Shown piece by piece: positions 17,887 to 58,943 of a DNA stretch of 64,000 nt. The stretch lies in assembly GCF_014696135.1 (NCBI RefSeq), contig NZ_JACJPP010000021.1, positions 1-64,000 of the forward strand. Reading direction: 5' to 3'. Each line of letters begins with the position of its first letter. Within the stretch, counting starts at the first letter, position 1. The position numbers and the translations under genes were made by a program. Origin of the DNA: Nodosilinea sp. FACHB-141 (GTDB lineage: Bacteria; Cyanobacteriota; Cyanobacteriia; Phormidesmidales; Phormidesmidaceae). The notes below the pieces were generated by a model. It was not told where the DNA came from, did not search any database, and saw nothing but the letters and a program-made list of their open reading frames with translations.

Positions 17887-20508
17887 TCACTTTGCTTTCG
17901 CCTCCAAGGTTTCGAGGCGGCTTTTGAGTTCCTGATTGGATTTCTTCAGATCGTCCAGCTCCTGGCGTAGCTTTTCTACCGCTTTGTCTTTGCCGATCGC
18001 TTTCTGAACATCCTGCACCGCTTCCTGGGCGCGGCGGCGCACCCGACCATCGGGGGTGTGATCGGCCAGGCTTTGCAGAATGCCCATCGCCCGCCCAGTT
18101 TCAATGCCGCTCAGACCCGACACTGCCGATACCTGGGTGAGGAAGAACGGTTCGCTGGCAATGGCCTCCAGTCGATCCAAGATGCGCTCTATGTTGGGTT
18201 TGCTCTGCCCCTTAGAGATCGCCCCTAGGGAACGAATGGCCGCCAGTCGCAGAGCCTGGGGAGTGCCGGGTTCGGTGTACTTGAGCAGCAGATCCAGCGC
18301 TTCTTCGGAGGATTTGAACTGGCTGAGGGCCGCGATCGCCCCCGATCTCACCGTCTCATTCCACCCCTGGCGCTCTTTGAGAATGCTCTCTAGCAGCTTG
18401 AGGATTTTCTTGTCTTTGGCTTTGCCCTCCAGATCGGCCGCACCTACCTTGCCGAGGGAGCGAATGGCGGCGGCTTCGACGTAGTAGCTGGGGTCGCCTT
18501 TTTCGGCGATGCTTTTGAGTGACTTAAAGCTCTCGGCAGTTTTAATGTCACCGAGGGATTCCACCACGGCGCGGCGCACGCGAGCTTCGGGGTCTTGCAG
18601 CCCTTTCAACAGTCCCCCAACGGCTTGATCGAGCTTCACCGAAGCCAACTGTTCAGCCACTTCGACACGGACGCCCCAGAAGGGTTCGTCGGTGAGGGCA
18701 GCGCTCAGGGCGGTGACGGCTTCGAGGCTGCCTTTTTTGGCCAGGGCGATCGCCGCCGCAATCCGCGATAGGGGGTCGGGGTCGTGTTTGAGCTGAGCCT
18801 TGAGTTCCGCCACCGGATACTCCAGCTCGGCGGTTTTGAGGTAGTGGTTGCCGATGTCAAAGCTAATAAAGTCGGGCTTTTTGTCGAGGGGGAAGAACAG
18901 CGCCTGCTCCCGCTCATGGATGCGCACGGTGAACGGCTTGACCTCAACTTTGCCAGCCTTTCCTTTGCCCACAAACCCAAAGCCAATCGGAATTTTCAGA
19001 TCGAACAAGCCGCTGGTGCTGCTGGTGTCACCGTCTTTGGCCTGGGTTTGGGTGACGGTGACTTTGGCCAGGTTGCTGTCGCCATCCCAGCTGTAGGCCA
19101 CTTTGTAGTCGGGGTGGCCGCCGCGCAGCACGTACTGATCAAACAGGGGTCGCAGGTTGCGGCCAGTGGCCCTATCAATCGCCCGCAGCAGGTCAATGGT
19201 TTCCACCGTCTGGTGGGCGTTGTTCTGCACAAAGGTGTGGATCGCCTTCCAGAACAGGGCGTCGCCCAGTTCGGCGCGAATCATGTGGTAGACGCAGGCC
19301 CCTTTTTCGTAGATGTGGCGGTCATACAGCTCGATCGCCTCCCGATAGACGTGGGTGACCATGGGGCGGCGGTAGCGGCTCTTGTCTTCGCTCAGGTAGC
19401 TGCGGGCCTCGCCCAGGCGGTAGTAGGCGGCATCGTCGGGGCCATACTCCTGCTCGGTCCACATTACTTCGGAGTAGGTGGCCATGCCCTCTTTCACCCA
19501 GGCGTGGCTCCAGTGGTTGATCACCAGCAAATCCCCAAACCACTGGTGGGCCAGCTCGTGGACGACCAGGGATTCGGAGTTGCGGTTGTCGATCGCAGCG
19601 CGTTCATCCAGCAGGCAGCGATCGGTGAGAATCGTTACCGACGTGTTTTCCATGCCGCCAAAGATGAAGTCGGCAGCGCACACCTGGGCGTACTTGGGGA
19701 AGGCGTAGCGGTAGCCGTACTTTTCGCTTAGGAATTCCACCATGCGGGGCGTTTTGCCCATGGTGAGCTGGCCTTGGTCTTTGCGGCCCTTCTCGACGTA
19801 GTAGGTGACCGGAATATCTTGCCACTGGTCTTGGATGACGTCGAACTCGCCCACGGCCAAGGCCATCAGGTATGTGGGGTGTACCTGCTGCTGGTGCCAG
19901 TGGTAAATTTTGTGGTCACCATCTTCGGTCGTGCTCACCAGTTCGCCATTGGAAACCACCTGGTAGGCGGCGGGGACTCGCACCTTAATCTCTGAGGTCG
20001 AGAGCATGCCCGGGTAGTCGAAGCAGGGAAACCAGAAGCGCGAGTCCTCGTCTTCGCCCTGGGTCCACACCTGCACAGGTTTGTCGGGGTAGTGCTTATC
20101 AGGACCGATGAAATAGATGCCGCGCTCGGGCTGAACGAGGCGGTAGGCGATCGCTACCGTAAAGCTTTCCCCAGCGATCGTGGGTTTCTTGAGCCGCACT
20201 ATTAACTGTTCGCCATCGTAGTCAAAGTCTTGCTTAGCGCTGCCCACCTTCACCGATTCGATCTGCTGATTCACCGCATCCAACGTCAAACTATCAACGC
20301 CGTCGCGCACAGGATTAATGCGAATTTTGCAGGTGCCTGCGCAAACCTTTTGCTCCAGGTCGAGGCTGAGGTCTAGGGCAATGTGCTCGACCTGGCCAGG
20401 GCGATCGGGATTGTAGTGGGGTTTGGCCCCCGGCATTTCAAACGATTTGTAGCCGTTGTTGTCGGTCTGCAAGCTTTCGATCTGAAACGTGCGGCGGGCG
20501 GTGGACAT
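17887..20508 (-). CDS. M1 family zinc aminopeptidase with C-terminal HEAT-like repeats and coiled coil
   Basis: 873 residues. Catalytic core in the N-terminal half: FGGMENTSVTILTD (the GxMEN substrate loop, residues ~285) and LVVHELAHQWFGDLL with the downstream glutamate in WVKEGMATYSEVMW (HExxH-18-E gluzincin zinc site). Removes N-terminal amino acids from peptides. Residues ~580-830 are alpha-helical repeats with alternating LSRIAAAIALAKKGS-type units, like HEAT/PBS-lyase repeats, and the last 40 residues form a lysine/glutamate-rich coiled coil. No signal peptide. This HEAT-tailed form is the common cyanobacterial type. Confidence 0.93.
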   Translation of the reverse strand: MSTARRTFQIESLQTDNNGYKSFEMPGAKPHYNPDRPGQVEHIALDLSLDLEQKVCAGTCKIRINPVRDGVDSLTLDAVNQQIESVKVGSAKQDFDYDGEQLIVRLKKPTIAGESFTVAIAYRLVQPERGIYFIGPDKHYPDKPVQVWTQGEDEDSRFWFPCFDYPGMLSTSEIKVRVPAAYQVVSNGELVSTTEDGDHKIYHWHQQQVHPTYLMALAVGEFDVIQDQWQDIPVTYYVEKGRKDQGQLTMGKTPRMVEFLSEKYGYRYAFPKYAQVCAADFIFGGMENTSVTILTDRCLLDERAAIDNRNSESLVVHELAHQWFGDLLVINHWSHAWVKEGMATYSEVMWTEQEYGPDDAAYYRLGEARSYLSEDKSRYRRPMVTHVYREAIELYDRHIYEKGACVYHMIRAELGDALFWKAIHTFVQNNAHQTVETIDLLRAIDRATGRNLRPLFDQYVLRGGHPDYKVAYSWDGDSNLAKVTVTQTQAKDGDTSSTSGLFDLKIPIGFGFVGKGKAGKVEVKPFTVRIHEREQALFFPLDKKPDFISFDIGNHYLKTAELEYPVAELKAQLKHDPDPLSRIAAAIALAKKGSLEAVTALSAALTDEPFWGVRVEVAEQLASVKLDQAVGGLLKGLQDPEARVRRAVVESLGDIKTAESFKSLKSIAEKGDPSYYVEAAAIRSLGKVGAADLEGKAKDKKILKLLESILKERQGWNETVRSGAIAALSQFKSSEEALDLLLKYTEPGTPQALRLAAIRSLGAISKGQSKPNIERILDRLEAIASEPFFLTQVSAVSGLSGIETGRAMGILQSLADHTPDGRVRRRAQEAVQDVQKAIGKDKAVEKLRQELDDLKKSNQELKSRLETLEAKAK

Positions 20509-20721
20509 GGGCGCAATAAACCTTTTGGTGACGTTAAAGCTTCAGGGCCAAGGCACCGTGCTACCGAGCTGCACACACCTTGGGCCAAACAGTCTAACCC
20601 TGACTGGCATAAAGCCATCCTACTCTGAAACGTCTAAAACGTAGTCAGATTGACATTGCTTAAGCTATGTCAATCTATGGGTAGCAGTTGGGCAAGGGAT
20701 GAGACATTTAACCCAAAACGC

Positions 20722-21014
20722 CAAGCGTTTGCTCTAAGCATTGAGTAATTTGCTCAGAACGCTGAGTCTTTTGCTTTCAGAGCCGAGTAAATTTCTCTGG
20801 ATGCCGAATCTTTTGCTCTCAAAGCCGAGTTGTTTTTTCTAGACATTGAGTCTTTTGCTCTGGACGCCGAGTTATTCTCTCGAAGCATCGAGTGATTTAC
20901 TTGAGCTGTCGAGTAATTTTCTCGGAACGCCAAGTGATTCACGCTAGCTTCCGAGTAATTTTCTTTGAACGTCGATTGATTCACCTAAGTTCTAAGTAAC
21001 TTGCCGAAATGCCG
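20722..21014. repeat. Array of about 13 degenerate 21-bp tandem repeats
   Basis: Units begin with GAG(T) at 20743, 20764, 20785, 20806, 20827, 20848, 20869, 20890, 20911, 20932, 20953 and 20974, an exact 21-bp spacing twelve times in a row, with an additional unit before (20722) and a weaker one after. Consensus roughly GAGTnnTTTGCTCnnnacGCC; odd and even units differ, suggesting a 42-bp higher-order unit. The minus strand through the array is open for 76 codons from a GTG at 20984, giving heptad peptides (RENNSA, RAKDSM), but lacks a ribosome-binding site. Most likely a noncoding short tandem repeat of the kind abundant in cyanobacteria. Confidence 0.9.
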
Positions 21015-21407
21015 TGTTTTTAAACCAACGTTCGAGCTGCTGACCGCGCTCGCCAATGCACAACCGCTCAACTTACAAAGTCCTGTTTCGAAGCCAATAT
21101 TGTGTAGGGGCATTGCAGTGCAATGCCCCTACCGCTGAGTCAATCAGCCGTCCGACACAGAAGACGGCTCTGCCCAAAGTGGGATTTATGTCATGAATCG
21201 CCATCACCGCTGACAAAGTTTCTTACTATCAAAGAGCAAGCCCTGAAGAGTAAAACCTTAGAGCGAAAACCTCGATCTAAGCAGCGCTATAGGTTGTGTT
21301 TTAGCAATAGCCCAACGCGCCATCGGGGTTGGTCTTAGTATGTCAAGCCGCTCTATAAAAGCACCCTGCGATCGACCTCGTTACAGTACTGTTTGGACTC
21401 CAAAACC
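21015..21407. other. Noncoding stretch between repeat array and next gene
   Basis: Apart from the palindrome at 21104-21132 no gene or RNA was recognised. A weak GTTACAGTACT...-type promoter could lie just before 21400 for the following small gene. Confidence 0.3.
21104..21132. repeat. GTAGGGGCATTGCA palindrome
   Basis: A perfect 14-bp inverted repeat around a single G (GTAGGGGCATTGCA-G-TGCAATGCCCCTAC). This is a well-known type of dispersed palindrome in cyanobacterial intergenic DNA; a shortened relative is present at 36650-36682. It may act as a transcript 3' end or be the relic of a miniature element. Confidence 0.8.
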
Positions 21408-21797
21408 ATGCCTATACTAAATCCCCAACAAGAAAAAACGCTGTCAGCCTTCATCACCGCCCTAGGGCAGCAAGACAGCGCATTGCCAGAAGGATTGCAA
21501 AAACAGATTCATGCCATTGGTCAAAATCTAGAGGCTCGCATTTTAGAACTGCCTACGATCGCCGCCAGCCTGCCGCATTTGAACCAGGCCTACCAAACGG
21601 CTCTATCTGATACCCAGGCCGACGCACCGGCTGCCACCTTTGCGTCTAGCACCAGTCAATCCGACAGCGACAAACAGTTTGATCGCGCCGTTGATATTCT
21701 CACCGCTGACGACCCGGTGCAAGCGGCCAAGCGCAGTCGCACCCCGCTAGGACAAATCGCCTCAAATCCGCTGAAGCGGCTCTTTGGCAGAGGCTAA
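21408..21797 (+). CDS. Conserved-looking small hypothetical protein
   Basis: 129 residues from the ATG at 21408 (an upstream TTG at 21393 is in frame but unlikely). Helical N-terminal half (NPQQEKTLSAFITALGQQDS ... LEARILELPTIAASLPHLNQ), an Ala/Ser/Thr-rich acidic linker, and a basic C-terminal tail NPLKRLFGRG. No signal peptide, membrane segment or known motif. Codon use matches its neighbours, and it has its own start close to the next gene, so it is probably real. Function unknown. Confidence 0.6.
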   Translation: MPILNPQQEKTLSAFITALGQQDSALPEGLQKQIHAIGQNLEARILELPTIAASLPHLNQAYQTALSDTQADAPAATFASSTSQSDSDKQFDRAVDILTADDPVQAAKRSRTPLGQIASNPLKRLFGRG

Positions 21798-57797: not shown

Positions 57798-58943
57798 ATG
57801 ATGGCGTCTTTTTGGATATCGGGGCTTAGACTACAATCCAGCACAAGCTGGGGACGTTTTGCGCGACTCATGGGAGCGGCGCTGGTAGGCAGCAGCCTGC
57901 TAGCCATACCGGGGCAGCGGGCCCAGGGCCAGTCGATCTCGGCCGCTACCGTGACCGAAATTTTAGACAGCAACCAGGTCTACATTCAAAACCGCGCAGC
58001 CCAGGTCAACAGCGTAGCTCAGCAGCGCCAGCAGGTCAGAACGAGGGATGCTCGGGCGTCGCTGCGATTCAACACTGGGGCCGTGGCGCGCCTAGCCCAC
58101 AACTCTAGTCTGGTGGTGGGTCAATGTGCCCAACTCAACCGAGGCACGCTACTGGTCAACGGCAACCTCAACGGCTGCTCGACCTCAGTCGTTGCTGGAG
58201 TGCGAGGCACAATTTATACCATCGAAGTCACCGAGACTGGGGAAACCATTGTTCAGGTGTTCGAAGGGGAAGTGGTGGTGGCGCGCAACCCCGAACCCAT
58301 TGAGCCGATGGCCGACGACTTTGACCCACGTAACCCATCCCTAGACCCGGCGGTGCCTTCCACCGACCCGGTAGTACCCTTCGTTAATCCTATGGAGCCA
58401 TCTACGTCTCCGGCTGAGCCATCACCTGTAGGCTCCCCTGACCCTGTCGTTACCCCTGACCCCGTCGTCACCCCTGACCCCGTCGTCACCCCTGACCCTG
58501 TCGTTACCCCTGAACCAACTACGCCAACAACTACGCCAACTACGCCAACTACACCGACCGGCGGGCCATTCACTGGACCGTCTCTTTTCCTCACTGCCCC
58601 TAAGCAGAGCAACTCTTCACCGGTCGATAGCGAAGACGCTAAACCAACTGATGAAACCCAGTCAGAAACCGTAGACTTTGCGCCAGCGGATTCGATTACC
58701 CTGGCAGAGGGGCAGCAGGTCATCGTGGATGCCGAAGATGACGAGGCGGTGATTACACCCCTAAGCCCAGAGGATTTTATTGACCTTTTAGAAGGTCCGC
58801 TGATTGACGGTTTTGCGGTAGAAATACCTGGCATGGCTAACCTGCGCCGCTCCTTCGAGCAACTGTTCCCAGGGATACCATTGCCCTACTATTGGGTGCC
58901 CGCCATTCCCACCCCGCCAATCCGATTTCCCTTTCCGTTCTAG
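57798..58943 (+). CDS. FecR domain-containing exported protein with PDPVVT repeats
   Basis: 381 residues from the ATG at 57798 (a start at 57753 is also in frame). Signal peptide (FARLMGAALVGSSLLAIPG...QG) followed by a FecR-like domain: TEILDSNQVYIQNRAAQVNS, RASLRFNTGAVARLAHNSSL and SVVAGVRGTIYTIEVTETGE with the conserved R-G-T. A Pro/Thr-rich linker with four PDPVVT hexapeptides (18-bp units, 58437-58508) and an acidic tail follow. Followed by the CHASE2 cyclase, a pairing common in cyanobacteria. Extracytoplasmic ligand unknown. Confidence 0.85.
   Translation: MMASFWISGLRLQSSTSWGRFARLMGAALVGSSLLAIPGQRAQGQSISAATVTEILDSNQVYIQNRAAQVNSVAQQRQQVRTRDARASLRFNTGAVARLAHNSSLVVGQCAQLNRGTLLVNGNLNGCSTSVVAGVRGTIYTIEVTETGETIVQVFEGEVVVARNPEPIEPMADDFDPRNPSLDPAVPSTDPVVPFVNPMEPSTSPAEPSPVGSPDPVVTPDPVVTPDPVVTPDPVVTPEPTTPTTTPTTPTTPTGGPFTGPSLFLTAPKQSNSSPVDSEDAKPTDETQSETVDFAPADSITLAEGQQVIVDAEDDEAVITPLSPEDFIDLLEGPLIDGFAVEIPGMANLRRSFEQLFPGIPLPYYWVPAIPTPPIRFPFPF
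58437..58508 (+). repeat. Four 18-bp coding repeats (P-D-P-V-V-T)
   Basis: CCTGACCCTGTCGTTACC-type units repeated four times within the FecR gene, varying only at third bases. Likely varies in number between strains. Confidence 0.9.

Follow-up and report, generated by a model that had tools for sequence, protein, structure and literature searches.

A two-turn tandem array beside a pepN-like gene in Nodosilinea and its kin in cyanobacteria and Proteobacteria

The window analysed here, a 64,000-nucleotide stretch of Nodosilinea sp. FACHB-141 (contig NZ_JACJPP010000021.1), carries an intergenic array of 21-bp units that keeps its spacing while its units diverge, and arrays of the same kind recur in other cyanobacteria and in Proteobacteria. 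This pattern, in the array and in its kin, is certain. Our best explanation, tentative and somewhat short of an even chance, is that the array is an old, intergenic, heptamer-related satellite which gains and loses whole units, with maintenance at the DNA level of its two-turn register and curved unit. We prefer a role of the DNA itself because register, core and predicted bend recur across phyla; as to function, a neutral satellite derived from heptamers would be about equally likely.

The array and its site

Written out in 21-bp steps, the units read approximately GAGTNATTTNCTC followed by 8 looser bases and stand in exact 21-bp register, with a GAG...CTC-type core around a T-run. The sequence-only reading had described thirteen divergent units in exact 21-bp phase from 20722 to 21014, most with a T-run at the same place. 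The units, their spacing and their coordinates hold: identity at lag 21 across 20722-20994 is 0.544, against a mean of 0.262 and a maximum of 0.353 in 2000 mononucleotide shuffles. When all 252-bp stretches of the window were compared at lags of 10-60, the two highest values both fell in the array (0.671 at lag 42, 0.548 at lag 21); lag 42 exceeds lag 21 there, and TRF reports both periods, 21 and 42. The exact phase extends only to about 20984, the two terminal units being short by alignment with the arrays of G019, G004 and G008. The T-run is strict (TTT at columns 7-9) in 9 of 13 units, and at least two Ts occupy these columns in all 13. Elsewhere in the window, TRF finds an 18-bp tandem repeat at 58435-58513 (4.4 copies, 93% matches).

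The array lies between the PepN-like gene and the 128-aa ORF, which is followed by a ferredoxin/metallo-beta-lactamase-fold protein (Table 1). BLAST over 57 genomes (the window's own included) together with a unit-chain scan located an array at this pepN site in 4 of 26 genus genomes, with 14 units each in the window genome (G000) and G019, 17 in G004 and 8 in G008 by the unit-chain scan; a laxer scan adds two more degenerate units each at the ends of the four arrays. The comparison of unit number between strains that had been proposed therefore gives a range of 8 to 17 among four genus genomes. At 12 further loci (L006-L017), one in each of 12 other genus genomes, the homologous stretch upstream of pepN, in some cases short, carries no array; the remaining 10 of the 26 lie outside this count. 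Such patchiness counts against a maintained role at the DNA level, and the variable unit number and the array-free syntenic species are what a functionless minisatellite would give.

Table 1. Coordinates of the array, its flanking genes and the associated features in the window
Feature	Position	Strand	Basis
M1 aminopeptidase with HEAT repeats (PepN-like), neighbour	17887..20508	-	ORF list, Pfam
30-bp palindrome at left edge of segment, upstream of pepN	20647..20676	.	14/15 pairs in window, by reading
Segment with array, missing from syntenic place in G011	20666..21157	.	alignment with G011
Degenerate first unit	20701..20721	+	unit-chain scan
Tandem array, 42-bp super-period	20722..20984	+	TRF, unit printout, orthologue alignment, lag identity
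Last two units, 1 base short each (20 bp)	20974..21013	+	comparison with orthologous arrays
128-aa ORF without Pfam match, neighbour	21411..21797	+	ORF list, Pfam

Kin in other genomes and their register

Related arrays were gathered by BLAST, by our own models and by one pattern, a procedure that favours in-register arrays. Two roughly calibrated models were used: R1, a sequence-only model of the genus arrays, matches 17/26 genus genomes and 19/194 class genomes, and R2, a mixed model, matches 52/194 class genomes in 41/109 genera. The same consensus was thus recovered in relatives, as had been suggested, but not elsewhere in the window genome, where all six R1 matches lie inside the window array and the model finds no second array of the kind. 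The possibility that the array is just one of many STRRs was borne out by half: the window genome holds no second array by R1, but the class has many, grading into heptamer arrays. R2 matches, often overlapping, occur at many places in G116 (at least 98), G172 (at least 88) and G216 (at least 118).

A 34-letter pattern run over GTDB contigs hit 31 stretches, against about 0.06 expected by our own sum with equal base frequencies. Eighteen are cyanobacterial (Nodosilinea, Leptolyngbya and others), four are from Rhodanobacter, three from a Chloroflexaceae bin, and one each from Lysobacter, Stenotrophomonas pictorum, Pseudoxanthomonas, Aquabacterium, Sporolactobacillus and Tannerella. The flanks in the Chloroflexaceae bin carry the HIP1 octamer, so this bin may hold cyanobacterial contigs. 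Among the pattern loci printed, 15 of 18 extend to at least four units by crude extension; 2-3 units are reached in this way at the locus of Tannerella and at two of Rhodanobacter, and more units appear by chain scan elsewhere in those genomes. R2 also matches 8/8 genomes found through the pattern, all eight picked for having a pattern match. The arrays lie between genes, which take every relative orientation (6 convergent, 3 tandem and 1 divergent among the 10 proteobacterial loci with both neighbours) and no common gene context, which counts against a DNA-level role and fits the generic contexts of a minisatellite. Against such a role we also count that column conservation is uncorrelated between genus and distant arrays (Pearson r -0.04). 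Judged by titles and abstract starts, the 21-bp class was not recognised in open-access full texts, and the 13-letter core had no match in such texts.

Register was scored by counting junctions between units along each locus's best chain; steps could range over 11-31 bp, and the gap penalty was 7 (or 4 as an alternative). At penalty 7, 187 of 193 junctions measure 21 bp in the genus group (22 arrays, one from a sister genus), as do 914/932 in 82 other cyanobacterial arrays and 171/189 in 13 proteobacterial ones; at penalty 4 the counts are 186/193, 882/962 and 169/191. Plain heptamer loci of G216 (among L149-L156) form part of the sets of other cyanobacteria used here, in the dyad counts over distinct units and in the heptamer and wobble counts. 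Cyanobacterial departures from register are mainly of 14 bp (in the other cyanobacteria, 9 at penalty 7 and 56 at penalty 4) and proteobacterial ones mainly of 22 bp; at the pepN site off-register steps are confined to the first or last units. Register is kept in all three groups despite an identity between adjacent units of 58-63% (63% in the genus group), which counts for a DNA-level role; we take long-term retention of the register as shown.

Whether selection holds the register is a separate matter. Counted from unit to unit, the genus arrays leave the register about 0.4 times per 100 mismatches. When the four orthologous arrays were aligned directly, 278 mismatches came with 24 gaps whose length is no multiple of 21 (8.6 per 100), against 27 per 312 (8.7 per 100) in their right flanks and 3 per 51 (5.9 per 100) in their left flanks, a count that differs in kind from the unit-to-unit one. 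We think that this alignment partly misplaces units (gaps of 47, 26, 32 or 8, 15, 7, 14) and have set it aside for that reason, although part of the gaps are real, the window copy having lost two single bases. It still counts against selection on the register, since no deficit of off-register gaps is seen, and for a functionless minisatellite; on account of it we hold the functional and neutral readings equal. The claim that spacing is conserved over sequence therefore stands for the junctions, the indels among orthologues speak against it, and selection on DNA shape, which had been proposed on this ground, has register retention and the predicted bend on its side and remains unproven.

The units also carry a dyad. 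Over distinct units (each distinct 21-mer taken once, as some loci with different ids cover one and the same array), excess complementarity peaks at column 7 for the genus group (200) and for Proteobacteria (212); for other cyanobacteria (834) it is led by columns 7 and 28, which are one dyad. When one unit was drawn per array from the best chain per locus, leaving aside L149-L156, centre 7 ranked first of 42 in 177/200 draws for the pooled 102 arrays, which we count for a DNA-level role. Within groups it came first in 61/200 draws for 14 proteobacterial arrays, in 23/200 for 69 other cyanobacterial arrays and in 4/200 for 19 genus arrays; this disappearance in the genus counts against that role. 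By the pooled draws the dyad belongs to the family at large, the genus by itself does not show it, and template switching in quasi-palindromes could produce it without selection.

Heptamers, predicted curvature and a possible role

The 21-bp unit can be read as three diverged heptamers (3x7 bp), a signal that the window array taken alone does not carry: its identity is 0.23 at lag 7 and 0.24 at lag 14, against 0.26 expected. Mean lag-7 identity, taken on the best chain of each locus, is 0.45 vs 0.27 expected in 79 other cyanobacterial arrays (plain heptamer loci included), 0.38 vs 0.28 in 10 proteobacterial arrays and 0.24 vs 0.26 in 16 genus arrays. Likewise, a 7-bp period is found in 0/16 genus arrays and in 78/79 arrays of distant kin, plain heptamer loci among them. 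Descent of the window array from heptamers would thus follow from its kin, which show the signal, and not from the array itself, which does not.

A census with model-free TRF (ORFs of at least 150 codons masked, arrays of at least 56 bp) places both periods side by side. In 800 kb of G216, period 7 leads with 28 arrays and period 21 ranks second with nine; periods 14, 31, 35 and 62 have two each, 42 and twelve other periods one each, and 28 none. G172 (340 kb) holds two arrays at 21 and one each at 7, 44, 51 and 63; G116 (200 kb) two at 21 and one each at 7 and 16; and G000 (324 kb) the window array, as two rows at 42, plus one each at 4 and 24. A window scan of 140 kb of G172 found five lag-7 windows and none at lag 21. 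With ORFs unmasked, so that some arrays may be coding, TRF over 200 kb gave 3/10 arrays at period 21 plus one at 42 in Lysobacter, and 0/6 at period 21 in Rhodanobacter. The second rank of period 21 and the heptamer signal in kin are counted for our best explanation. G216 also has young 21-bp arrays lacking 7-bp substructure (L196 3779-4010, L212 12217-12438, L244 19216-19383), and the units of L212 and L244 are not obviously like the window array's family.

The strongest rival may well be right, on a par with our own account: slippage or unequal exchange in heptamer-rich genomes would create 21-bp arrays, and whole-unit exchange would hold the register without functional selection. In line with it, plain heptamer, mixed and 21-bp arrays occur together in G216 and 14-bp steps exist. 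Nevertheless, the register outlives the sequence over deep divergence, the same core (counted also for a DNA-level role) appears in distant phyla, and the periods 14 and 28 are rare in the G216 census.

The predicted shape of the unit is a further point against that rival. In a dinucleotide wedge model, the ratio of end-to-end to contour length of the window array is predicted at 0.79 over 126 bp, against 0.946 (sd 0.027) in shuffles; 9 of 10 arrays exceed all 200 dinucleotide shuffles in predicted bend, L142 being equalled by 9, and respacing to 16 or 26 bp abolishes it. Because any 21-bp repeat sums its bends, columns were also permuted alike in all units. Of 200 such controls, those predicted to be as bent or more number 6 for the window array, 0 for G004, 2 for G009, 2 for G026, 0 for G022, 6 for G020, 19 for L144, 68 for L142, 0 for Lysobacter and 1 for Rhodanobacter; with AA wedges only, in the same order, they number 14, 1, 0, 7, 0, 9, 23, 36, 13 and 17. 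The expectation that the array is bent was upheld in the models: predicted curvature is strong, needs whole-turn spacing and mostly goes beyond that of column-permuted 21-bp controls, which we count for a DNA-level role.

If the DNA-level role is real, one T-tract-centred core per two helical turns would set cores and bends on one face, and a nucleoid or regulatory protein could dock on the curved stretch between pepN and the ORF, with a possible effect on transcription. In the H. pylori sabA rheostat, the length of a T-tract repeat reportedly alters DNA shape or phase near the promoter. The 21-bp array could work like such helix-phased promoter repeats, with the difference that the sabA repeat is a mononucleotide tract (PMC4081817). 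Half-turn versus whole-turn respacing would separate a role of DNA shape from neutral drift. A bolder version, to which we give rather low credence, is that these arrays form an undescribed multi-phylum class of two-turn (21-bp) intergenic arrays with a T-tract-centred GAGC...GCTC-type core, whose register would be held by a putative architectural protein docking on one face or, as a variant, made by a turn-counting mutational process.

Plasmid iterons are direct repeats of about two helical turns. The window array resembles them in repeat length and differs in its chromosomal contig and strongly diverged units; an iteron was rejected, as there is no plasmid match and the neighbours (the PepN-like gene and the 128-aa ORF) include no replication gene. 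STRRs are said to have been defined by Mazel et al. in 1990 as short tandemly repeated heptanucleotides of cyanobacteria. The array is like them an intergenic cyanobacterial tandem repeat, with 3 x 7 substructure in many of its kin, but its unit is 21 bp and shows no 7-bp signal. The authors of SPADE describe heptamer arrays as the most abundant intergenic tandem repeats, with no clear functional clue, and report that periods divisible by three are in excess (PMC6344855). Like the 21-bp class, these arrays and the TAACTGA repeats (PMC4679880) are abundant, intergenic and of no known function, and the passages on heptamer arrays in the two accounts do not include the 21-bp class. Arrays of 21 bp whose register persists as their sequence drifts, which recur in cyanobacteria and Proteobacteria and are predicted to bend, offer a testable handle for telling a DNA-shape role from neutral drift.

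Other readings and neighbouring observations

That the array acts as a transcribed RNA with repeated hairpins is improbable. The stretch 20701-21014 folds somewhat better than shuffles (z -2.49 on the plus and -2.23 on the minus strand), and A-C cells outnumber G-T at the outer dyad pairs in other cyanobacteria (616 to 287, best chain per locus), as wobble in a minus-strand RNA would give. Yet both strands fold alike, wobble favours neither strand in the genus (71 G-T to 78 A-C) or in Proteobacteria (68 to 61), and columns 6-8 covary though they could not pair in a hairpin. Rfam covariance models gave no match in 20400-21500 up to E 1, and a known RNA family was rejected.

Slightly less probable still is that the array arrived with a small insertion that has palindromes at its ends. 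G011 (L010) keeps the window's gene order (pepN, ORF, ferredoxin protein) without the array: window 20568-20665 and 21158-21414 match, 93 bases replace the window's 492, and homology breaks off at the midpoint of the left palindrome (20647-20676). A second palindrome, of 29 bp, lies at 21104-21132. However, on reading, the two are not mutual copies, the segment occurs only once in the genome, the flanks differ for arrays at other places, and loss is equally possible in G011 and in G010 (L016), where both sides align and the array is absent. The left palindrome has 15/15 pairs in G019 and G008; it is near-perfect only in the four array-bearing genomes, and the array-free relatives printed keep about one half, so that it marks the breakpoint. 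The palindrome at 21104-21132 (GTAGGGGC...GCCCCTAC), to which three other places in the genome show a weak partial match, looks like a dispersed palindromic repeat.

The least probable reading, a heptad-repeat peptide encoded on the minus strand or in another frame, is not supported: the open frame that had been pointed out does exist (20754-20984, 76 stop-free codons, GTG start), every in-phase step preserves it, and an ORF of at least 200 codons overlaps the array in 13/16 proteobacterial loci tested with crude ORF lists, but stops in the candidate frame number 7 where independent columns predict 10.8 (162 units in 16 in-phase arrays, 4 of 20 with broken register being left out), information by codon position is flat (0.93, 0.94, 1.07 in the same 16), the 22-bp proteobacterial steps break any frame, there is no Pfam match, and long frames would be expected by chance in GC-rich DNA.

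Relatives of the window genome carry arrays at a second site. A relative of one HTH_3 (XRE-like) gene lies within a few hundred bases of 13 second-site array loci (G003, G004, G007, G008, two in G009, G012, G016 C244, G017, G019, G020, G022 C455 and G023), sharing either 86-100% or no more than 34-38% identity with the query; at L022, L023 and L027 the array is on its 3' side. Relatives of this gene occur in 24/26 genus genomes, so a partnership with the array is not shown. In 4/4 sites scanned, the second-site arrays stand upstream of NB-ARC genes (L022 1-2614, L027 1345-3601, L028 1-2041, L031 1777-3414) that differ in their N-terminal or partner domain (TIR_2, Trypsin_2 with Trypco1, and others); the 21-bp arrays of the window's relatives also adjoin NB-ARC conflict genes with differing effector domains.
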